From an uncultured Bacteroidales bacterium (GTDB lineage Bacteria > Bacteroidota > Bacteroidia > Bacteroidales > Muribaculaceae): a stretch of 37,889 bases of DNA. The DNA is taken from NCBI GenBank assembly GCA_947175245.1, contig CAMWLW010000020.1:1-37889 (forward strand). Direction: 5' to 3'. The notes beneath the pieces were generated by a model. It saw nothing but the letters and a program-made list of their open reading frames with translations, ran no database searches and had not been told where the DNA came from. The number at the start of each line of letters is the position of its first letter. The first letter of the stretch is position 1. The position numbers and the translations under genes were made by a program. Shown one piece after another: positions 2,011 to 37,683 of this stretch.

Positions 2011-2481
2011 TCAGTGACGCCGGCTGTATAACAACCACCCCATGAGCGGTATGGCGATGAGCAGCCACCACCACGCGCCCGGTGATGGCGTCGCTGTCTC
2101 CGTGTCCCGTTCGGCGTGTGTGTCGGCCGCGATATCCTGTCGATTGCCGGCGGTTTTGATAGTCGATGTGCTGTCGGTCACGTCAATGCCGTGGCTCACC
2201 ACGGTGTTGCGGCTCAGTCGGTTGGCCTTGATGCTCACTGTGTGTCCCGACGGTGTGGCGATAGTGATGACCGGGCTGTCGATGACCGTACCCGCGTGGG
2301 CGACCAATAGCTCGCTCATGGCTGTGACTGCATGAGTGACCGTGCTGTCGGTTGCCGATTGGCTTGATTGGATGTGGTGGTCGGTTGAGGTGTGACGCTG
2401 AGAGCGGCAGCCGCCTGTTATCACAAATGCGATTAAGCCGATACCGATGATGACGGTAAAAGTGTGTGCGTGTGTTTTCAT
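2011..2481 (-). CDS. putative unimolecular-spanin-like lipoprotein, third gene of lysis cassette
   Basis: A 156-residue protein with no family I recognise. It has a hydrophobic N-terminal signal ending in VITGGC (candidate lipid-bearing Cys25; the -3 residue is non-canonical), a Ser/Thr-rich periplasmic middle (residues 26-131), and a C-terminal membrane helix (about 136-152, GAWWWLLIAIPLMGWLLY) followed by Arg-Arg-His. An outer-membrane lipoprotein anchor at one end and an inner-membrane helix at the other is the layout of phage u-spanins, which fuse inner and outer membranes in the last step of lysis. Position fits: it directly follows holin and endolysin genes on the same strand (14-base gap). 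The spanin call rests on architecture and context only; it could instead be an envelope-spanning protein of other use. Confidence 0.5.
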   Translation of the reverse strand: MKTHAHTFTVIIGIGLIAFVITGGCRSQRHTSTDHHIQSSQSATDSTVTHAVTAMSELLVAHAGTVIDSPVITIATPSGHTVSIKANRLSRNTVVSHGIDVTDSTSTIKTAGNRQDIAADTHAERDTETATPSPGAWWWLLIAIPLMGWLLYSRRH

Positions 2482-2495
2482 AGCGTGTGCGATTT

Positions 2496-2903
2496 TTATA
2501 GGTTGGCGTATTCTTTGGTGGCATCAAAACAGGGGCAATCCTTGGCTGCGAAATCGCGGTGACCGCGAATTGCTGCCCCTGGATACTGCCGTCGCAATTG
2601 CCTCAGAAGCTCCACGAGTGCCTGTCGTTGGGCCGGAGTGCGTGTGTCACAAGGCTTCATATTGCTGTCGAGGCCGCCCACATAGCAGACCCCTATCGAC
2701 CGCGCGTTGCGGCCCAGACAGTGAGCCCCGGCGCGCTCGATGTCGCGGCCTGGGTAGACCGTCCCGTCAAGTCCTATCAGATAGTGATAGCCTATGCCGT
2801 CAAAGCCGCGCTCGCGGTGCCAGCGGTCAACGTCGGCCACGCTCACCGGGCGCCCTGCCGGTGTGGCCGTGCAATGCACAATTATCAGGTCGATTGCTCT
2901 CAC
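2496..2903 (-). CDS. N-acetylmuramoyl-L-alanine amidase, T7-lysozyme type (endolysin)
   Basis: A 135-residue Amidase_2 domain that hydrolyses the amide bond between MurNAc and the stem peptide. It is compact, like T7 lysozyme. Zinc ligands and catalytic residues are in place: His10 (IIVHCTAT), Tyr39 (GIGYHY), His115 (RGHRDF), Lys121 and Cys123 (KDCPC), with the same spacing as in T7 lysozyme. No signal peptide, so release would depend on the holin upstream. The start is a GTG at 2901-2903 preceded by AGGAGGTG, an unusually strong Shine-Dalgarno sequence for this phylum; the GTG overlaps the holin stop (GTGA). A longer in-frame reading to 3068 is only the holin gene in another frame. Confidence 0.9.
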   Translation of the reverse strand: MRAIDLIIVHCTATPAGRPVSVADVDRWHRERGFDGIGYHYLIGLDGTVYPGRDIERAGAHCLGRNARSIGVCYVGGLDSNMKPCDTRTPAQRQALVELLRQLRRQYPGAAIRGHRDFAAKDCPCFDATKEYANL

Positions 2904-3343: not shown

Positions 3344-3377
3344 AGTGTTTATAGATTTAGATTGATGATTGGAGATG

Positions 3378-3422
3378 CAAAGATACACTATGCCGTGGCC
3401 TAAACCATGCAAAATTCCCACA
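3378..3422 (-). promoter_or_regulatory. lysis-cassette promoter with 26-bp element shared with the gene at 25217
   Basis: On the minus strand, positions 3422-3397 carry a 26-bp block (core GGGAATTTTGCATGG, ending TTTAGGCC), then 11 unrelated bases, then the -7 box TATCTTTG (3385-3378) followed by CA. The same 26 bases, the same 11-base gap and the same box plus CA occur at 25049-25095 on the plus strand. The block lies where the -33 region and an activator site would be. Confidence 0.8.
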
Positions 3423-8798: not shown

Positions 8799-11111
8799 AT
8801 GACCAGACTGTTCGTTACCGGAATATTGTTGCTGCTTGCGTCCGTGACGCGGGCGGCAACTTCTTTTTTGGCCGATTCGGTCAGCACTCACCAGTCGGTA
8901 GGTCTCGTTCTGAGTGGCGGCGGCGCCAAGGGTATCGCCCACATCGGCGTCATCAAGGCGTTGGAAGATAACGACATCCCGATTGACTATATAGCCGGTA
9001 CGTCGATGGGCTCGATTGTCGGTGGTCTCTATGCCTCAGGTTACACCCCCGACGAGATGCTCGACCTCATCCTGTCGCGCGACTTTTCCTACTGGTCGAC
9101 CGGCCGTATCGATCAGAACCTCGTCTACTACTTTGCCAAGGACGAGCCGACGCCGGTAATGGCCACATTCCCTGTCGCCAAGAGCGACACCACGGTGACA
9201 CGCTCGCCGGCGAGCCTCATATCGCCGCTGCCCATGAACTTCGCGTTCATGGATCTCTTTGCCACCTATACGGCCCAGTGTGGCGGCGACTTCGACAATC
9301 TGTTCGTGCCGTTCCGCTGTGTGGCTTCCGACGTGAAGAACAAGCACAAGGTCGTCATGTCACGCGGACAGCTCGGCGACGCCATACGTGCGTCGATGAG
9401 CTTCCCGGTTGTCTTTCAGCCTATTGAGATAGATAGCGTGCTGCTGTATGACGGCGGTATCTATGACAACTTCCCGGTCGACGTGATGCGCTCTGAGTTC
9501 GCCCCCGACATCATGATAGGAGTCGACGTGCATGGCACCACCGACCCCGCCAACGCCCGCGACCTCGTCAACCAGATCGAGGAGATGGTCATCCAGAACA
9601 ACGACTATGACCTCCCGGCCGACGAGGGCATCAAGATACGCATCAACCTCGACCGTTTCTCGCTGCTCGACTTCCCGGCCGCCCGTCAGATATATGACAT
9701 AGGCTACAGCCACGCTATGGCAATGATCGATTCGATCAAGGGCCGCATCGCCAGCCGCGACCCCATGACGGCGCGCACGCTGCGTCGCCGGGTGTTCAAG
9801 TCGGCCACTCCCTACCTGCGTTTTGACCGCGTCGGGGTGAGCGGAGGCACGCCGGCCGAGAACCGGTACATCGACTACCTGTTCACCCACAACCGCCGTG
9901 ACACAATCGATGTCACTTCGGCCCGCCTCTCCTACTACCACGCCATCACGTCGGGCAAGCTCAAGGATCTGTTCCCCACGGCCGTCTACAACGACACCAC
10001 CGGCCTGTTCAGGCTCAATCTTCAGGCCAATGTGCGCAACAACTTTACCGTCGGCGTCGGTGGCTACATCACATCATCGTCCAACAGCATGATTTTTGTC
10101 ACCGGCCGCTACACCTCCATGTCGCTCAAGACAATGGATGTCGCCATTGACGGCTGGATAGGCCAGAGCTACATGGCCGCCGCCCTCAACACGCGCTTTG
10201 TGCTCCCCTCTCACATTCCCACCGCGCTGTCGCTGCAGGGCGTCATTTCGCGGCGTAAGTACTTTGAGAGCGACAAATTCTTCTTCGATGCCTCCGTGCC
10301 CACGTTCATTACCCGCACCGAGGGCTTCGGCCGCCTGCGCTACAGCATGGCTGTGGGACGCAGTGCCGTTGCCACGATCGATGCCGGCGGCGGCACGATG
10401 CTCAACCGCTTCTACCGCAACGGTGCCTTCAACTTCGATCATCCCGACCGCGACTACACACGCATCAACATAGCCCAGGCCCGCGCCCTGTTCGAGTCAT
10501 CGACCCTTGACAACCTCACGGCGCCCACCAACGGCATTTACAGCCGCATCCTGGGCTCATACAACACCGGCAGGTACCACTACAATTCGGGCATAAAGAC
10601 CTATGCCGACCACGACAGCCACATCGACTGGTTCGAGGCTCACGCCAAGGTGAAAGGCTACACGCGCCTGTCACGGCACTTCAGCCTCGGAGGCGAGCTC
10701 GACGCCCTATACAGCACCCGCGGTTGCCTCGACAATTACAACGCCACCATAGTCAACGCTCCCGCCTTCACGCCGACACCGGCAGCCGATAACAGCTTCA
10801 ACCCGGCGTTCAGAGCCAACTCATACATCGCGCTCGGCGCCGTGCCCGTGTGGATAATCAACGATAATCTGCAAGTCAGGGGTAACTTCCACATCTTCCA
10901 GCCCGTCAGGCGTATACTGCTTGACCCTGTCGACGGCGCCGCCTACTACGGGCGATACTTCAGCAAGCGCTTTGCCTACTGCGAGCTCTCGGCCGCCTAC
11001 ACCCTGCCGTTCGCCACCATCAGCGTCTACGGCAACTACCAGAGCTACCCGGCCCGCAACTGGAACGTCGGCGTCTCGTTCGGCCTCTACTTCCTCGCCC
11101 CCCGCCTCTAA
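8799..11111 (+). CDS. patatin-like phospholipase with outer-membrane barrel domain (PlpD-like)
   Basis: 770 residues, exported (signal peptide about 1-20). The N-terminal patatin domain (about 30-320) has the oxyanion loop GGGAKG, the nucleophile elbow GTSMG (Ser69) and the dyad Asp in YDGG (Asp218). A short POTRA-like stretch comes next (VFKSATPYLRFDRVGVSGGTP), then an Omp85/surface-antigen-type barrel to the C-terminus (ending VGVSFGLYFLAPRL). This is the type Vd autotransporter layout of Pseudomonas PlpD. The likely activity is phospholipase A at or outside the outer membrane. I chose ATG 8799; the TTG at 8793 overlaps the typA stop. A clear terminator follows. Confidence 0.9.
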   Translation: MTRLFVTGILLLLASVTRAATSFLADSVSTHQSVGLVLSGGGAKGIAHIGVIKALEDNDIPIDYIAGTSMGSIVGGLYASGYTPDEMLDLILSRDFSYWSTGRIDQNLVYYFAKDEPTPVMATFPVAKSDTTVTRSPASLISPLPMNFAFMDLFATYTAQCGGDFDNLFVPFRCVASDVKNKHKVVMSRGQLGDAIRASMSFPVVFQPIEIDSVLLYDGGIYDNFPVDVMRSEFAPDIMIGVDVHGTTDPANARDLVNQIEEMVIQNNDYDLPADEGIKIRINLDRFSLLDFPAARQIYDIGYSHAMAMIDSIKGRIASRDPMTARTLRRRVFKSATPYLRFDRVGVSGGTPAENRYIDYLFTHNRRDTIDVTSARLSYYHAITSGKLKDLFPTAVYNDTTGLFRLNLQANVRNNFTVGVGGYITSSSNSMIFVTGRYTSMSLKTMDVAIDGWIGQSYMAAALNTRFVLPSHIPTALSLQGVISRRKYFESDKFFFDASVPTFITRTEGFGRLRYSMAVGRSAVATIDAGGGTMLNRFYRNGAFNFDHPDRDYTRINIAQARALFESSTLDNLTAPTNGIYSRILGSYNTGRYHYNSGIKTYADHDSHIDWFEAHAKVKGYTRLSRHFSLGGELDALYSTRGCLDNYNATIVNAPAFTPTPAADNSFNPAFRANSYIALGAVPVWIINDNLQVRGNFHIFQPVRRILLDPVDGAAYYGRYFSKRFAYCELSAAYTLPFATISVYGNYQSYPARNWNVGVSFGLYFLAPRL

Positions 11112-11166
11112 CCTGTATAGGTTGCCCCTCCCCTCGAAATTCACATTATAAAAATGTCATTTACTG

Positions 11167-11200
11167 AAGCTGCCAATTTTGGCAGCTTTAGTATTTTTTT
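11167..11200 (+). terminator. rho-independent terminator after typA-patatin operon
   Basis: A 9-bp perfect stem AAGCTGCCA / TGGCAGCTT (67-75 with 80-88 of the 111xx block) closes a 4-base loop and is followed by a T-rich run (TAGTATTTTTTTT). It marks the end of the GC-rich operon and the left edge of the AT-rich island. Confidence 0.9.
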
Positions 11201-11223
11201 TCAAAAAACATAAAATGAGCTAA

Positions 11224-11261
11224 GGTGTATCACGATTTGTGACACCTCGATACTAATTTTG
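11224..11261 (+). promoter_or_regulatory. candidate promoter with operator-like inverted repeat, island operon
   Basis: TAATTTTG (11254-11261) is a -7 box about 49 bases before the ATG at 11310. Just upstream lies an inverted repeat, GGTGTATCAC (11224-11233) against GTGACACC (11239-11246), complete apart from two extra bases in the left arm. It sits where a regulator would block or guide RNA polymerase. Confidence 0.4.
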
Positions 11262-11309
11262 GCACCATGAAACGATAGTCTGATACACAACAGCTCAGTT
11301 ATATATATT

Positions 11310-12071
11310 ATGAAAACTTTTAGAAATTATATTGAGGAGAATGACTTTGAAGAGGTCTGGCCGGCGATAGTCGAAATTTATGAAGAATCAGAGGAGATAA
11401 AACCGGTGTACGCACAGTATTATGACAAACTGAAAGAGCTACCCTTCAATCCCCGATTAGATGAAATTAAGTTTCAGCGCTTGGAATTTATTCTTACCCG
11501 GGGCCGACAACCGTTAGGTATGAATGATTCTCCCGAGTATCTCATTGATAAGAAAATATCTATAGACGAAGACAGCGAAGTGATGGAAATTAAGTCTAAT
11601 GAAGTTGCAGCGATTTTAGTTTATTGGGCTTCATTTCATACTTTCATGACTTCAAAAGAGCATGACGACGACCTTCATCATTATTTGGAAATTATTACAA
11701 GTGGTGATCCATCGCGCCTCAGTGAGTATCTCTCAGCTCACCTTTATAAAAAAGATCCTTGCGCGGATATTAAAGATGAGAGTCTGGAACAAAAAAACAA
11801 ACGTTTTTGGAAGAGTACATTAGATCGCATTTCACCGGGCGACTGGAGAGACATTTTATTGGTATTGAAACGTGCTATTGAGTATAATATCGGGTTCATG
11901 CGTGGCTATGCCGATCATGCCGGGCGTGAACACGATGCCGATAGGATGCAGCTTTGTTGCAGACTTATTGATATAGCTACCCTAAACAAATATCCCGATA
12001 ATCGTGGGAAAAAGGCCTTAAAACTCCTGTTTGGTATTCTCGCTAAAGAAATAACAGGTTGGGATGATTAG
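11310..12071 (+). CDS. hypothetical protein, first gene of the AT-rich island
   Basis: 253 residues, cytosolic, acidic, predicted mostly helical, with no signal or membrane segment. The opening (MKTFRNYIEENDFEEVWP) and the middle (NEVAAILVYWASFHTFM) resemble a group of uncharacterised Bacteroidales proteins often found in variable regions; I know no function for them. The C-terminal half has a Cys/His-containing stretch (GREHDADRMQLCCRLIDIA). Followed after 32 bases by another unknown gene on the same strand. Base use is AT-rich compared with the flanking typA operon. Confidence 0.75.
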   Translation: MKTFRNYIEENDFEEVWPAIVEIYEESEEIKPVYAQYYDKLKELPFNPRLDEIKFQRLEFILTRGRQPLGMNDSPEYLIDKKISIDEDSEVMEIKSNEVAAILVYWASFHTFMTSKEHDDDLHHYLEIITSGDPSRLSEYLSAHLYKKDPCADIKDESLEQKNKRFWKSTLDRISPGDWRDILLVLKRAIEYNIGFMRGYADHAGREHDADRMQLCCRLIDIATLNKYPDNRGKKALKLLFGILAKEITGWDD

Positions 12072-12103
12072 CTCTTTTATTGGCCTTATCAAGACTCGAT
12101 AAT

Positions 12104-12820
12104 ATGACGAACGACCCGACAAGCACACTGCTGGCCGCGCTTAGGATATTGAAGGCTGCTTTCTATTTGCAATTTATTCATTATCACATTACCATAGATG
12201 ACTTTGATGAATGGATGAATAAAAGGGATAGAATTATAATTGAAATTTGTTATGATATTTACGATAAAATCATAGTGCCATCACTGGAAGATTATAAACA
12301 AGGCATGTTGTTCCGCGAAGAACAAAGGATGCTTGCAAAGGCAATAAAGATCATTGCTGAAAACGTTGATTTTTGCCCCCGTCCATGGGATTGGTCAGTA
12401 GACACATCACAAATTCCCCCAAAAACCGTTCTTGAATTCCTTAATAAATGTCGCGATAGTATAAGAAGTTATATTGAAGCCCTAAAGATAACTGATATTG
12501 CTGGTTTCAAAGACATTGCAGGCGATTTGATAAAGATGCTTTCTCCCGACTCACAATTCCTTGATAACCGCATCCTACTAAAAATTCTGCATCCGATAGT
12601 TGATTCTTACGAAGGAGTCGAAGTGTACGAAATGGAAATCATAGGAGAGAACGATCGGATTGAAGTAAGTCCAAATGTTTTCGGGTCGTTTGGTTTTCTA
12701 TTAGAATCAAAGAAAGTCAATATAGAGACTGGCCAAATCCTGAATAAAGTCAAATACGATTTATACAACTACACAATTGATATAGATGATATTATTGATA
12801 ACAATAATACCATAGATTAA
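12104..12820 (+). CDS. hypothetical protein, second gene of the island
   Basis: 238 residues, not recognised. It is acidic and mostly helical in the N-terminal 150 residues (RILKAAFYLQFIHYHITIDDFDEW), with a more beta-like, Asp-rich end (VEVYEMEIIGENDRIEVSPN and YTIDIDDIID). No export signal. I chose the ATG at 12104; the in-frame TTG at 12080 is only 9 bases after the previous stop and adds nothing recognisable. The next gene begins 11 bases after the stop behind GAGAAGAAA. Confidence 0.7.
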   Translation: MTNDPTSTLLAALRILKAAFYLQFIHYHITIDDFDEWMNKRDRIIIEICYDIYDKIIVPSLEDYKQGMLFREEQRMLAKAIKIIAENVDFCPRPWDWSVDTSQIPPKTVLEFLNKCRDSIRSYIEALKITDIAGFKDIAGDLIKMLSPDSQFLDNRILLKILHPIVDSYEGVEVYEMEIIGENDRIEVSPNVFGSFGFLLESKKVNIETGQILNKVKYDLYNYTIDIDDIIDNNNTID

Positions 12821-12831
12821 GTGAGAAGAAA

Positions 12832-13137
12832 ATGGAACAATCAATCGAACTGATGCGCAGGCGGCACGCATATTTTACAAAGTTGATTGCCGGGCACAAC
12901 ATTCACACAGCCGGGGAGTTTTGCGATAAACTCGGCGAGCTGTTTGAAATGTTTGGTGTGGAGGTGTTTGTGAATGTCGATGCGCCCGATACAGCAACTA
13001 TTAGCATTACTTGTGAGGGGTATGACTACGAGGACTACACCGTTCATGATGGGGTAGACGGAGGCCTCGCCACAGTCAGCAACATTGTTGAATGGAAACC
13101 GTTGTGCAGCTCTGAAGAAATAGATATTTTCCACTAA
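12832..13137 (+). CDS. small acidic hypothetical protein
   Basis: 101 residues, not recognised. Starts with a helical part (IELMRRRHAYFTKLIAGHNI) and ends in a strongly acidic segment (CEGYDYEDYTVHDGVDGG). Its position between two island genes with short gaps (11 and 20 bases) suggests one transcript with them. Its size and charge would suit a partner or inhibitor of the neighbouring protease, but that is speculation. Confidence 0.65.
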   Translation: MEQSIELMRRRHAYFTKLIAGHNIHTAGEFCDKLGELFEMFGVEVFVNVDAPDTATISITCEGYDYEDYTVHDGVDGGLATVSNIVEWKPLCSSEEIDIFH

Positions 13138-13157
13138 CCAAAGTAACAAGATAATCA

Positions 13158-14015
13158 ATGATTGTAAAATATAACTCTCTGAAAGAAACCATCGATGCAA
13201 CAACTGCTTTTGTGTCTGAGACACGAGAGGCCGATATAAAGAGGACGAGTCCTGAGAAGATATTGAATTTATTCATTTCAGCTAATAGGTTTGGTCGAGA
13301 AGCCATCGCGGCATGTTGCCGAAAATTATACGGGCCTGAATATCTCACCTCAAATCGTTATGATTATGTTGTCCACCATGCTTATGGTAGATATTTAGCT
13401 CGCCACTATTCTAATAGTTGTATCGAGATATCATGGAAGAGTTTTACTCGATCATACGCTGGATTTATTGCACTTATAGGTCATGAAATTGCCCACGATG
13501 TTGGCCATAGACATGGACATGATGAAATTTTTTGGCAACAATATTATAGAAATTGTCAAGGTTTAGGGCTAATTTCTTCTGACATAGAATACAAGGATGG
13601 AATGATCGAGGATAAGCATAATGTTCGCATTATGGGATATGGTAGTATTATTGGCCTGAAACAATATCCTGAATTTACCGTTTCATTACCTACACTTGAA
13701 AACCGGCTTAAGGCTATGCTTAAACACGATGTTTTTACTTATGATAATATCAGCAATGACTATATAATTAAGCAGGATTTTATGCCGATGGCGTTAGAAA
13801 TATGTCGAGAATATCAAGTTAGGTTAGATCGTCATCAATGCGCTGACATATATAGCCCAAATACTGATTTCATATTAAAATCAATTGATGAGCCGTGGCT
13901 TGATAATCCGTCTGATAATATCTTTGACCCGTCAATACTAAAATGTATAACCCGCAACGATATTAACTTTTATTGGTATATACACGATTCAATTTCTTCA
14001 AGCAGTCCGCTCTGA
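13158..14015 (+). CDS. SprT/YgjP-like zinc metallopeptidase
   Basis: 285 residues with a central zincin motif, GHEIAHDVGHRHGHDEIFW: His109-Glu110-x-x-His113, with third ligand His119 (or His121) and the following Phe125. The spacing matches HExxHxxxxxHGxxxF of SprT/YgjP-type peptidases. An N-terminal helical region (residues 1-95) and a long C-terminal part (about 160-285) are not recognised. No signal peptide, so intracellular. Last gene of the island's plus-strand run; its last 46 bases overlap the end of the convergent nuclease gene. Substrate unknown; such proteases are sometimes effectors in defence or stress loci. Confidence 0.75.
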   Translation: MIVKYNSLKETIDATTAFVSETREADIKRTSPEKILNLFISANRFGREAIAACCRKLYGPEYLTSNRYDYVVHHAYGRYLARHYSNSCIEISWKSFTRSYAGFIALIGHEIAHDVGHRHGHDEIFWQQYYRNCQGLGLISSDIEYKDGMIEDKHNVRIMGYGSIIGLKQYPEFTVSLPTLENRLKAMLKHDVFTYDNISNDYIIKQDFMPMALEICREYQVRLDRHQCADIYSPNTDFILKSIDEPWLDNPSDNIFDPSILKCITRNDINFYWYIHDSISSSSPL

Positions 14016-14998
14016 GAGTCATATCCTAACAGTGTCTCAAAGTCCCACTTTGATTTCTCGAGCAATTTACCTTTAAAGCAGACTCCGTTCCATAGTCCGT
14101 TTGAATTATTACTATTAAGAGACAATTCCGCTATCATTTTACCTTGATGCATGAATTTGAGTGTACCTCCGCATGTGGCAAATTCAAATTTATGGTCAAA
14201 GACTAATTCGCAATCACTGAATTGTGCTATTTCTCTGAGTCGCGGAATTAACTTTGACCAGACAATATATTTACAAAAACGTTTAATCCCCTCATTAGCC
14301 TCATTTTTTCTTGTTTCATCAGCTATTTGATATCCCTGCCAGATTAATCTTCGTGTTTCAGAACTGCCCCGGTCTATATAAACTCTATTATTATGAATTA
14401 ATTCAAAAAATTCCGGATACCCTTTTACATTCAAGCGCACCCACATCCACAAATCAAAAATTTTATTAGTACTTTCTTCATCAAGTTTCTCGGCCATTAG
14501 ACGCTCAAGCCATTTATATATATGTTCATAATAGGAAATGCAAAAGTAATCTTTCCCATGTATCAATGATTGACTTGAATCTGCTGATGGTATGTGCCCG
14601 AACCTGGTGAGATAAAATAGCCATGAAGAATGTTTTGTATATCGTGCGATTTGTTTTTGCTGGTCATTTGCATGAATTTTATTCTCAATAATAATTTTAT
14701 CATTACCTATGTGTAAAACTATGTCCAATCTTCCATCTTCGGTAGAAACTTCAATATTAGCTTTATCGCTTTCTTTTACAAGTAAATCATTAATTTTTTC
14801 ACATCCATCAACAGTAGACAACTCGTCTAAAAGAAATATTATAGCTTTAGACCCTAAATTAAGTACCTCCGTAATCTTTTTTGAGGTAAGAGTCTCAGCC
14901 TGAGAATATACGAATTGTTTATCCGTAATCCTCTTTTCATCGTTCTTGAATTGCGTTGCTAATTGTTGTAATTTATTCTCAAACTCACTTATTACCAT
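13970..14998 (-). CDS. PD-(D/E)XK nuclease superfamily protein
   Basis: 342 residues. The fold signature is visible: Glu35 in an N-terminal helix, Asp92 (GRLDIVL), then IIIENKIHA with Glu105 and Lys107, and a QxxxY element (Gln116, Tyr120) after it, as in the PDDEXK_4 group. The C-terminal part (about 190-342) is a helical/beta extension with a Cys-containing strand (FEFATCGGTLKFM). Probably a DNA-cutting or DNA-binding protein of a defence-type locus. It lies 38 bases after the AspT-like transporter on the same strand without an obvious promoter of its own, and faces the metallopeptidase gene tail to tail. AT-rich, unlike the transporter. Confidence 0.8.
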   Translation of the reverse strand: MVISEFENKLQQLATQFKNDEKRITDKQFVYSQAETLTSKKITEVLNLGSKAIIFLLDELSTVDGCEKINDLLVKESDKANIEVSTEDGRLDIVLHIGNDKIIIENKIHANDQQKQIARYTKHSSWLFYLTRFGHIPSADSSQSLIHGKDYFCISYYEHIYKWLERLMAEKLDEESTNKIFDLWMWVRLNVKGYPEFFELIHNNRVYIDRGSSETRRLIWQGYQIADETRKNEANEGIKRFCKYIVWSKLIPRLREIAQFSDCELVFDHKFEFATCGGTLKFMHQGKMIAELSLNSNNSNGLWNGVCFKGKLLEKSKWDFETLLGYDSQSGLLEEIESCIYQ

Positions 14999-15036
14999 AA
15001 TATCAGTAATCGCGTTAGATGCCTTATATCACTTGT

Positions 15037-25048: not shown

Positions 25049-25093
25049 TGTGGGAATTTTGCATGGTTTAGGCCCCCGCTCATATTATCTTTG
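25049..25093 (+). promoter_or_regulatory. promoter with 26-bp element shared with the lysis cassette
   Basis: Positions 25049-25074 are identical over 26 bp to the minus-strand block 3422-3397; after 11 unrelated bases comes TATCTTTG (25086-25093), again followed by CA. Transcription should start about 25098-25100, at the beginning of the repeat leader. Confidence 0.8.
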
Positions 25094-25099
25094 CACCCG

Positions 25100-25207
25100 A
25101 AAAACCACTAAACCCCTAAACCCCTAAACCTCGACCTTTAGGTCGAATTAAACCACTAAACCTCGGCATTAGCCGAATTAAACCCCTAAACCTCGGCCGC
25201 AGGCCGA
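25100..25207 (+). repeat. three-hairpin repeat leader
   Basis: The 5' leader has repeats of CC[AC]CTAAACC, each of the last three ending in a hairpin: TCGACC-TTTA-GGTCGA (25131-25146), TCGGC-ATTA-GCCGA (25163-25176) and TCGGCC-GCA-GGCCGA (25193-25207). Hairpin starts are 32 and 30 bases apart and each is followed by AAT[TA]A. The stems differ in sequence but each pairs fully. The last ends nine bases before the ATG. Confidence 0.75.
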
Positions 25208-25216
25208 ATAAAAACT

Positions 25217-25780
25217 ATGAAAATCATTCTGACCCAAAAACTGATTGACAGGCTTATGGAGCAGACGCCCGAGATGACCATGCAGGTACTCGCCACCTGC
25301 CGCGAGCTCGCCGGGCTCGACAACGACGCCATCGAGAGCTATCAGCCCGCGCCCGATGCACCGCCCGTGCTCATCGACATCGTTACCGACATGAAGAAAC
25401 GCGCCATACGTTCACGCCGTCGTCGCGAACGCGCCGCCCTGCGTCGTCAGCTCGAGCAGCACCGGGCCATTGCCGGAGCCAACCGTGTTATCAATGTTAC
25501 CGACCCCTCACACACCCACGACGACCTGATGCAGGCCGCCAAGCGCTTCAGTCACGACATGCGTATGGCCCTTGCCGAGGCCTATCCCGACCCGCGGCGG
25601 CTTTCACACTACTACCGCTACCTCGTCACCAACTTCGCCTATCTTGTGAGGTTCGAGCAGGAGCTCACGGCCCAGATGCGTTCCTACGGCATACGCCGTT
25701 CACTTCTCGACCGTTTCCCCGACAAGCTGTCCGACCTTTATATCCCGACAACCACCCCCGGGTCACGCCACGCCGTCTAA
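25217..25780 (+). CDS. hypothetical Arg-rich protein with structured leader
   Basis: 187 residues, not recognised. No signal peptide or membrane helix. The N-terminal 60 residues are helical and acidic; residues about 60-85 form a very basic helix (KKRAIRSRRRRERAALRRQ) that could bind nucleic acid; the C-terminal half (about 100-170) is helical (LMQAAKRFSHDMRMALAEA). ATG at 25217 follows the last leader hairpin; no Shine-Dalgarno sequence is seen. GC content is that of the core genome. Its promoter block is identical to that of the lysis cassette, so the two are probably switched by the same factor; the basic helix would suit a regulator, but that is inference. Confidence 0.75.
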   Translation: MKIILTQKLIDRLMEQTPEMTMQVLATCRELAGLDNDAIESYQPAPDAPPVLIDIVTDMKKRAIRSRRRRERAALRRQLEQHRAIAGANRVINVTDPSHTHDDLMQAAKRFSHDMRMALAEAYPDPRRLSHYYRYLVTNFAYLVRFEQELTAQMRSYGIRRSLLDRFPDKLSDLYIPTTTPGSRHAV

Positions 25781-25860
25781 AAGAGAGCCCCGGGTAAGCG
25801 AGCCCTGAAGAACTCTCCACCCGGGGAAATCGTGCGAACATTAAGGTAACTGTCAAGATC

Positions 25861-25986
25861 GTGCATCGTGCATCGTGCATTATGAATTATGAATTGTGCA
25901 TTGTGCATTGTGCATCGTGCATTGTGCATTGTGCATCGTGCATTGTGCATCGTGCATTGTGCATTGTGCATTGTGCATCGTGCATC
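25861..25986. repeat. 18-copy heptanucleotide tandem array
   Basis: Eighteen uninterrupted 7-bp units: mostly GTGCATT and GTGCATC, with two ATGAATT units at positions 4 and 5. The array ends at 25986, where the last unit runs into the stop codon (TGA, 25987-25985) of the minus-strand aminopeptidase. The open frames through it are just the period-7 pattern read in three codon phases and are not genes. Confidence 0.95.
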
Positions 25987-35698: not shown

Positions 35699-36463
35699 AT
35701 GGCAACTTCAAACATTAGGATCAAGAAGGTCTGTCAGTGGTGTGGAAATGAGTTTGAGGCTCAAAAGACCACAACCCAGTATTGTTGTAAGCGATGTGCC
35801 GAGCACGCTTACAAAGAACGTAAAAGACAAGAGAAGAAGAAAATCACTGAAACTCTCGATTCGCTTACTGCTCGTGAAAATAAGATAATCCAACTCTCTG
35901 GCCGAGACTATCTATCGGTTGCTGAAGTGGCGCAAATCCTTAATGTTACGCCAAGGGCAGTATATAATCTCATTTACCGAGGTACCATCAAAGCCTATCG
36001 TCTCACCTCACAATGGGCAGTAATCAAGAGAGCGGATATTGACGCAATGATCGAGGCTCGTCCTTATGAACGTAAGCCAAAAGCAACGGCACTTGCCAAT
36101 GATGAAAACGGTGAGGCAATCTCAGAATTTTACACGACAAAGGAGATTATCGAGAAATTTGGAGTGAGCAATTCATGGGTGTTTGCTCAGGGGAAGGCTC
36201 ACAATATCCCGAAGGTGTATCATCGAGGGAAGACACTCTGGAGCAAGTCGCATTGTGACCGGGTGTTTACGGCAAAGCCTGAAACTCCAAAAGAAGATGA
36301 TTGGATATCCTATTCCGATGTGCGCGCAGAATACAACCTGACACATGACCAGCTTCACAATTACGTGAAGTATCACGGACTGCGCCGTAGGAAAGTCGGA
36401 AAGTACACTTATATCTTGAAGTCTGAAATCGATGCGATTCTCCGTCCTCCTACACTGAAATAA
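35699..36463 (+). CDS. zinc-ribbon plus three-HTH DNA-binding protein (excisionase-like)
   Basis: 254 residues. An N-terminal zinc-binding segment (about 11-33: CQWCGNEFEA, then YCCKRCAEH) is followed by three winged-helix excisionase/MerR-type units: about 68-120 (LSVAEVAQILNVTPRAVYNL), 138-186 (YTTKEIIEKFGVSNSWVF) and 198-250 (ISYSDVRAEYNLTHDQLHNY). Only the first is a clear HTH_17; the others are inferred by pattern (E-I/V ... N-W/Y position and a closing K-SEIDAIL-like helix). Probably a recombination directionality factor or regulator for the integrase 104 bases downstream. AT-richer than the core. Confidence 0.8.
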   Translation: MATSNIRIKKVCQWCGNEFEAQKTTTQYCCKRCAEHAYKERKRQEKKKITETLDSLTARENKIIQLSGRDYLSVAEVAQILNVTPRAVYNLIYRGTIKAYRLTSQWAVIKRADIDAMIEARPYERKPKATALANDENGEAISEFYTTKEIIEKFGVSNSWVFAQGKAHNIPKVYHRGKTLWSKSHCDRVFTAKPETPKEDDWISYSDVRAEYNLTHDQLHNYVKYHGLRRRKVGKYTYILKSEIDAILRPPTLK

Positions 36464-36467
36464 GTCT

Positions 36468-36512
36468 GGTTATCGGTTATCTCTTGGTTATCTGCTAAAT
36501 AACTTGATAACC
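36468..36512. repeat. GGTTATC repeat cluster before the integrase gene
   Basis: GGTTATC occurs at 36468, 36475 and 36486, and its inverse GATAACC at 36506-36512. The third copy and the inverse form a perfect 7-bp inverted repeat with 13 bases between. Lies in the gap between the HTH and integrase genes; a likely operator or arm site. Confidence 0.55.
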
Positions 36513-36567
36513 GCATAGCCGCATACGAAATTTGCATCAAAAAAATCATTCATCAAAAAATATCGTT

Positions 36568-37683
36568 ATGGATATCTGCACAAAAGTAACCCTTCGGCAG
36601 CGTCTTCTCAAATCGGGTAAGATCACGCTGTATTTCGACTATTACCCTCCAATCCGAAACCCGAAAACCAACCGTATGCAACGGCATGAGTACCTCGGCA
36701 TATACCTCTATGCCAATCCTACCAATCAGGTTCAGCGCGATTTCAATCGCTCGATGCTTGAAAAGGGTGAACTGATCCGTTGTCGCCGTCAGGAATCTGT
36801 CATTAACCGTCAGTTCGGTTTTATCGACCACAGCCAACTCAAAGCTGATTTTCTGGAATACTTCGAGGCTGTTACAAAGAAGAAGTATCAGAAATGGCGC
36901 ATCGTGTTTGAGCACTTCAAGGTGTTCTGCAAGGGCAAATGCTCCTTCGGAGATCTCACAGTCGAGTTCTGCACAAAGTTTCGTGAATACCTGCTTACGG
37001 CAAAACAACTGAAGCATAAGAGAAAAAGCCTGTCGCAGAACGCTGCAGCCGGTTACTTCTCCACATTCCGTGCCCTTCTGAAAATGGCATATAAGGAGAA
37101 ACTGATTACAGAGAACATCAACGACTATCTGGAATATATCGAATGGGAAGATGTCGAGCGTGAGTTTCTGAATCAGGATGAACTGATACGGCTTGCTCAG
37201 ACTCCATGTGACAGTGATGTACTTCGCAGGGCATCCCTCTTCTCGTGTCTTACCGGCTTGCGTTTCAGTGACATTCTAAATCTCCGATGGAACAATATCC
37301 AGGAGGTTGCCGGAATCGGGCTATGCGTTGTCCTGAAAACACAGAAAACGAAGACTCCTGCCACTCTCCCTCTATGTGAGGATGCTATCGAACTTCTTGG
37401 TGAGCGACAGACAGGAAAGGTATTTGTCGGATTTAAGAAGACCCTGACCGCCAAACCACTCAAAGACTGGATTAAGGCAGCCAAGATTGACAAACGTATT
37501 ACCTTTCATTGTTTCCGTCATACCTATGCGACCTTGCAGATGGCTATGAGCAGCAATCCCTATCTCGTTAGTCAGGCTCTTACACACAAGAACCTTGAAA
37601 CTACTCTCCGATACACTCACAGCGTCCCGACTGCCCTCGTTGATACCTTAGGCAAAATCTCAATTAAACCGAAGACCGAATAA
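36568..37683 (+). CDS. tyrosine-type site-specific integrase
   Basis: 371 residues from ATG 36568 (an in-frame upstream start at 36532 is within the leader). Order: Arm-type N-terminal domain (about 1-90, VTLRQRLLKSGKITLYFDYYP), SAM-like core-binding domain (about 95-190), catalytic domain with Arg232 (TGLRFSD), His314-x-x-Arg317 (FHCFRHTYAT), His340 (LTHKN) and nucleophile Tyr349 (LRYTH); Lys in the beta-hairpin KTQKTKTP. All catalytic residues are present, so it should be active. Typical of Bacteroidetes integrative and conjugative or mobilizable elements. Confidence 0.95.
   Translation: MDICTKVTLRQRLLKSGKITLYFDYYPPIRNPKTNRMQRHEYLGIYLYANPTNQVQRDFNRSMLEKGELIRCRRQESVINRQFGFIDHSQLKADFLEYFEAVTKKKYQKWRIVFEHFKVFCKGKCSFGDLTVEFCTKFREYLLTAKQLKHKRKSLSQNAAAGYFSTFRALLKMAYKEKLITENINDYLEYIEWEDVEREFLNQDELIRLAQTPCDSDVLRRASLFSCLTGLRFSDILNLRWNNIQEVAGIGLCVVLKTQKTKTPATLPLCEDAIELLGERQTGKVFVGFKKTLTAKPLKDWIKAAKIDKRITFHCFRHTYATLQMAMSSNPYLVSQALTHKNLETTLRYTHSVPTALVDTLGKISIKPKTE

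Follow-up and report, generated by a model that had tools for sequence, protein, structure and literature searches.

Gene transfer agents (GTAs) have so far been characterized mainly in Alphaproteobacteria and in a few other groups. RcGTA, of Rhodobacter capsulatus and its relatives, is encoded at dispersed phage-derived loci, and its late lysis genes are placed under a dedicated activator, GafA, together with CtrA (PMC9638019). FpGTA, a podovirus-like, GTA-like element of the gut commensal Faecalibacterium, has its small and large terminase, portal, scaffold and capsid genes in one 10.5 kb operon; for Bacteroides, lateral transduction, not GTAs, has been reported (PMC12946183). Mouse-gut VLP DNA shows GTA- or generalized-transduction-like patterns, which have not been assigned to the genes described below (PMC7667829).

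Here, we analyzed a window of 37,889 nucleotides, i.e., the whole stretch of DNA under study, which is contig C20 of a Muribaculaceae genome of 2.79 Mb in 148 contigs (the home genome, G000). The window contains two copies of a 26-bp element, one preceding a lysis operon and the other a small gene of unknown function. In the absence of transcription, particle or packaging data, our analysis indicates that this element is probably the activator site of a dispersed, domesticated regulon for a podovirus-derived phage particle, most likely a GTA. As in RcGTA, the loci are dispersed and phage-derived. Unlike RcGTA, the system points to a podovirus-like particle whose capsid is of the SU10 type, its operons for capsid, terminase and lysis are all separate from one another, and the cis element is near-identical between loci in a genome and differs between genera. 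The system shares with FpGTA a gut commensal host and a podovirus-like character, whereas its operons are separate and its host belongs to another phylum. We found no literature on gene transfer agents in Muribaculaceae or Muribaculum among openly licensed PMC papers, and a GTA-like regulon in this family is apparently unreported.

The phages most similar to this gene set are the temperate Bacteroides phages BF1-TP2, BKO1-TP3 and BS-TP4 and IMG/VR contigs, which have a related terminase (37-41% identity) and the same portal and capsid families. In BF1-TP2, one genome combines an integrase and a repressor with very large internal proteins and a portal longer than 620 aa, whereas none of the first three lies near the chromosomal set of Muribaculaceae, whose portal measures ~440-500 aa. 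The set also resembles bacteriophage SU10 and P22-like short tails in the PF17236 capsid family and the nozzle fold, but this similarity is only structural and remote (~10% identity).

Two identical promoter elements in the window

The two copies of the element lie on opposite strands and read TGTGGGAATTTTGCATGGTTTAGGCC base for base. Each is followed by 11 unrelated bases (CCCGCTCATAT / ACGGCATAGTG) and then by TATCTTTGCA (Table 1), so that the identity and the spacing claimed for both loci in the initial annotation are exact. The number of shared 26-mers expected by chance is ~3e-7, and the region of the element pair is the longest inverted match of the window (47 nt, 85%). An 18-base core, allowed up to 3 mismatches, occurs twice in the window against a mean of 0.04 in shuffled sequence, and 0 of 100 shuffles reached two occurrences. 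The exact 26-mer had no match in IMG/VR. The sequence TATCTTTGCA includes the -7 box TAnnTTTG of a sigma-ABfr-type Bacteroidota promoter, sigma-ABfr being the primary sigma factor (PMC7366714). By reading of the sequence alone, without a reference set of spacings for comparison, TTTTG stands 24 nt before this box in the home genome; promoters of this type have TTTG near -33.

Table 1. Positions of the lysis operon, the small gene and their promoter features in the window.
Feature	Position	Strand	Evidence or remark
Gene with unimolecular-spanin layout (lipobox-like N-terminus, C-terminal hydrophobic segment)	2011..2481	-	role inferred
N-acetylmuramoyl-L-alanine amidase / endolysin	2496..2903	-	PF01510 1.1e-19; phrog_822 amidase 9e-58
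Holin, 147 aa	2900..3343	-	PF05105 2.5e-4, just below its cut-off; phrog_20732 2.5e-25; phrog_199 holin 0.004
-7 box TATCTTTGCA of the lysis operon promoter	3376..3385	-	read from the sequence
Identical 26-bp regulatory element	3397..3422	-	precedes the lysis operon
Upstream regulatory element, 26 bp	25049..25074	+	precedes gene 25217
Sigma-ABfr-type -7 box with flank, TATCTTTGCA	25086..25095	+	11 nt past the element; consensus TAnnTTTG (PMC7366714)
Leader with three short hairpin repeats, CCTCGRC-loop-GYCGAA (25129-25147, 25161-25177, 25191-25208)	25129..25208	+	
Small basic helical protein, 187 aa, of a multi-copy paralogous family	25217..25780	+	function unknown

Orthologs of the holin were found within the genus and beyond, and the spanin-like gene has an equal position and layout in relatives. 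The lysis operon adjoins one membrane-protein gene in the home genome and in G002, G003 and G006.

Element sites in the home genome and the genes behind them

Nine copies of the element were found in the home genome with a 23-base core and up to 2 mismatches, and none with a reversed control pattern. When the -7 box was included in the pattern, there were nine exact matches, all with a constant 16-base gap from GGTTT to TATCTTTGC. A tenth, slightly diverged site (GGCGTGGGAATTTTGCATGGAATGG..TATTAACTTTGCA) precedes a small-gene paralog on C50. Two more copies lie at contig ends (C33:1-136 and C8:1-136), ahead of a gene that is cut after 'MRNTTDTIADYTA'; its continuation was sought in the assembly and was not present, and it is a repeated gene that was not assembled. 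Many matches without genes behind them would have pointed to a dispersed repeat and spoken against a control site. This was not seen, as all 10 readable sites of the home genome precede genes; a degenerate copy at the start of contig C133 has no gene behind it.

The genes behind the nine sites are the holin-amidase-spanin-like operon of the window, a three-gene operon on C6 whose second product is the terminase large subunit (phrog_2, 5e-20), and seven genes for small basic proteins. Thus, terminase and lysis cassette stand under one promoter on separate contigs, suggesting a dispersed phage-derived system. These results bear out the initial proposal of a shared control site and not a duplicated gene, the same site also preceding the terminase operon and a paralogous small-gene family.

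Promoter elements shared within genomes and differing between genera

The home-genome pattern gave only one true site in relatives (in G003) and one chance intragenic match (in G056), which is explained by the element differing between genomes. We compared the capsid, terminase and lysis promoters of relatives, anchored on TAnnTTTG, by ungapped similarity over 45 upstream bases. Pairs of promoters from the same genome had a median score of 12, with 22 of 29 scoring >=10, whereas pairs from different genera had a median of 4 and reached this score in 7 of 632 cases (Mann-Whitney p 1.7e-15; 0 of 10,000 label permutations). The shared blocks are in fixed register, mostly -45 to -15 from the -7 box. 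All three operons have TTTTGCATCAC in common in G002 and a GTTTCG-AAAATCGCAGT block in G018; the shared element of G014 is TGCGAAGTTRCGGGTTCAGCG, the shared blocks of G006 and G007 contain AAAGTG, and GCCCGATTRTRCATAAA is common to the capsid and terminase promoters of G020. In G003, the nearest relative of the home genome, the terminase, holin and several small-gene sites have a TTGTAA-TTT-C-(C/T)GG-type element, not the home type, which is retained at one small gene.

Because the sites at unrelated loci change together, a trans-acting factor is indicated, and we consider it very likely that one factor co-regulates the operons. The initial annotation had inferred a single factor for the two loci of the window; our results support this inference and widen it, since in relatives the capsid, terminase and lysis operons all have equivalent, lineage-specific elements ahead of them. 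Shared promoter elements at dispersed loci were observed, without expression data, in the operons of relatives and in the lysis and terminase operons of the home genome, whose capsid operon (on C3) has a half-site only. This is an exact 16-base left half-site, TTGTGGGAATTTTGCA, at C3:3379-3394, with no -7 box at the correct distance, and the promoter of this operon scored low against the home lysis and terminase promoters.

Whether the factor is an alternative sigma factor or an activator, both of which had been suggested, is undecided by our results, and the primary-sigma TAnnTTTG box in every lineage favors an activator. If the block were instead the -35-like element of an alternative (ECF-type) sigma factor, its fixed register, mostly -45 to -15 from the -7 box, and its overlap with the -33 region would be accounted for. 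However, we regard this as unlikely, given that the -7 box conforms to the primary-sigma TAnnTTTG in every genome (PMC7366714) and that a sigma -35 element is typically shorter than the shared block. The question concerns the identity of the factor and leaves the regulon as it is.

Phage-derived structural and packaging genes

Using proteins of the nearest phages as queries for portal and capsid, we found an SU10-type major capsid protein (PF17236) in 135 of 149 family genomes (103 of 110 good genomes, 29 of 30 genera) and in 0 of 14 control genomes; the portal (phrog_156) is present in most family genomes. The order in the four-gene operon is scaffold-like, capsid, adaptor-like and portal (phrog_156, phrog_1328), with the scaffold and adaptor assigned from their position, and the operon lies amid housekeeping genes. 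No capsid or portal match was obtained in G003, which is of the same genus as the home genome and 99% complete; either loss or assembly may be the cause.

The terminase was found in 65 of 71 sampled family genomes and in 3 of 47 genomes from elsewhere in the order, with no in-frame stops among the matches listed. In the alignment, the KARQWGGST motif is conserved and the acidic residues D444, E503, D603 and D604 are invariant. The terminase tree requires 14 genus changes, the minimum possible, against a mean of 26.9 when shuffled, and it places Muribaculaceae apart from the phage terminases. In the regions read, the gene mostly follows a large gene and lies amid housekeeping genes that differ by genus. 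The fold of the gene ahead of the terminase, modeled from a 32-sequence alignment, has a mean pLDDT of 87.7, and its best Foldseek matches are short-tail nozzles (SU10, Pa223, VP1 and P22 gp10). With VIA-align, the nozzle matches (7z47_G, P22 gp10, Pa223) gave Z 19-23, Pa223 reaching Z 23.0 over 409 residues, and other beta-propellers gave up to Z 20. The product is thus predicted to fold as a podovirus nozzle, a prediction that rests on the match of the whole model and on the gene context. The terminase of G057, a genome from another family, has beside it two genes, of 208 and 864 aa (L073 10469-13997), which might encode internal virion proteins, judging from a weak match to a tape-measure family.

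Across Muribaculaceae, terminase, capsid and portal genes are single-copy, mostly intact and dispersed among housekeeping genes; stops were seen in two portals and one capsid gene of relatives. Close pairs gave dN/dS of ~0.06-0.22 (only where dS was measurable), from which the three genes are judged to be under purifying selection. A single contig carries both the capsid and the terminase locus in G004, ~0.65 Mb from each other, and likewise in G014, at a distance of 0.96 Mb, so the dispersion is real and not an assembly artefact. Distances of TerL and MCP correlate with r 0.85 overall, but with r 0.33 when one genome per genus is used, and the case for co-inheritance between genera therefore rests on presence and promoter sharing, not on trees. 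By inspection of the regions read, which was not exhaustive, the structural genes are flanked by housekeeping genes, with no integration or replication genes alongside. In the home genome, we could not pin down a tail fibre, a small terminase or any internal proteins, and neither the activator gene nor receptor-binding parts were found.

Four features expected of a GTA are thus present. The chromosome contains genes of phage origin for structure, packaging and lysis (terminase, portal, capsid, nozzle, holin and amidase); these have been maintained vertically over the long term under purifying selection; integration and replication genes are absent beside the structural genes in the regions inspected; and, judged from promoter sequence alone and with only a half-site at the home capsid operon, the dispersed loci are under common control. 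A domesticated phage particle controlled by the same shared sites could nevertheless have another use, as a PBSX-like killing particle or a programmed-lysis device. Identical genes and regulation would be expected of a particle that transfers nothing, and PBSX of B. subtilis packages host DNA without transferring DNA (PMC7667829). We hold this to be quite unlikely, as a portal, capsid, nozzle and catalytically conserved terminase under purifying selection would be needless for a pure lysis device, and the regions read around the operons showed neither a toxin-like nor a receptor-binding module. That the loci are separate decaying prophage remnants whose promoters are similar by chance would fit the phage derivation of the genes, the related temperate Bacteroides phages (terminase 37-41% identity) and the few stops. 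This is very improbable in view of capsid frames that are open in more than 100 genomes, a low dN/dS, a terminase that is genus-monophyletic, housekeeping neighbors, the lack of an integrase next to the operons in the regions read, and shared promoter elements that vary together inside each genome. It is scarcely credible that the element is a dispersed repeat or a mobile promoter which transposition or gene duplication has scattered and which answers to no regulator in common. Most copies do stand before small-gene paralogs, which could have carried the promoter with them and whose leaders share hairpin repeats. However, the unrelated lysis and terminase operons have the element at a constant -7 box spacing, and a passive repeat leaves unexplained why the counterparts of the lysis, terminase and small-gene promoters in G003 carry another element.

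Proposed mechanism and significance

For a GTA regulon read from these sites, we propose that an activator would bind the block ~20-40 bases before the -7 box, for which there are no binding data, and would recruit RNA polymerase with the primary sigma factor. The packaging, capsid and lysis genes would be switched on together, presumably in some cells; a short-tailed particle would form and package host DNA, and holin, amidase and spanin lysis would release it. Binding, timing, packaging and transfer are all inferred by analogy with RcGTA. We think it rather likely that the regulon encodes a working GTA, in which particle production and DNA transfer are themselves inferences. With less assurance, we lean slightly toward the broader view that nearly all Muribaculaceae have a working podovirus-derived GTA, with scattered operons tied only by a genus-varying activator site and with the small-protein family as a new accessory part.

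Muribaculaceae are dominant Bacteroidota of the mouse gut, and the phylum is one with much gene exchange. A GTA present throughout the family would, if true, give a specific mechanism to the generalized or GTA-like packaging that has been seen in DNA from mouse-gut particles (PMC7667829). The cis element names the operons of the regulon and can serve as DNA bait for the regulator, and its change from genus to genus provides a natural example of co-evolution between a factor and its sites.

The small basic protein family and other features of the window

The N-terminal helical domain of the 25217 product was modeled from the single sequence with pLDDT of ~88, and this fold had no match in the PDB. 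No convincing match for the family came from Pfam, NCBIfam or PADLOC. There are 11 matches in the home genome, 10 in G003, 8 in G006 and 4 in G002, and the family was not recognizable outside the genus. It carries the regulon element in the home genome and G003. In the G002 paralogs (L328, L333 and L337), a TATATTTGC box follows a palindromic element of the type TGTGC-N9-GCACA, which differs from the element of the GTA-like operons in G002. One to three copies of the leader hairpin also occur in the terminase operon leader and in the other small-gene leaders that were checked, and the hairpin is absent from the lysis leader, being confined in the window to the leader of gene 25217.

Several minor observations were made around these loci. 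A tandem 7-bp repeat, ATYGTGC, lies downstream of gene 25217 (25844-25984) and is also found just upstream of the site on C103 (L005), i.e., beside at least one other copy of the element. One transporter gene is adjoined in the home genome by a small-gene paralog with the shared promoter (L015 8066-8659) and, in G002 and G004 of the same genus, by the capsid operon (L277 and L284), as if modules had been exchanged. In the window, positions 11000-15000 have a GC content of 34-42% against ~58% and several unknown ORFs, and this stretch is probably acquired DNA. Finally, a helix-turn-helix-like ORF and a probable tyrosine recombinase, identified by eye, follow an mnmE-like GTPase gene at 35699-37683, which is possibly the edge of a mobile element.
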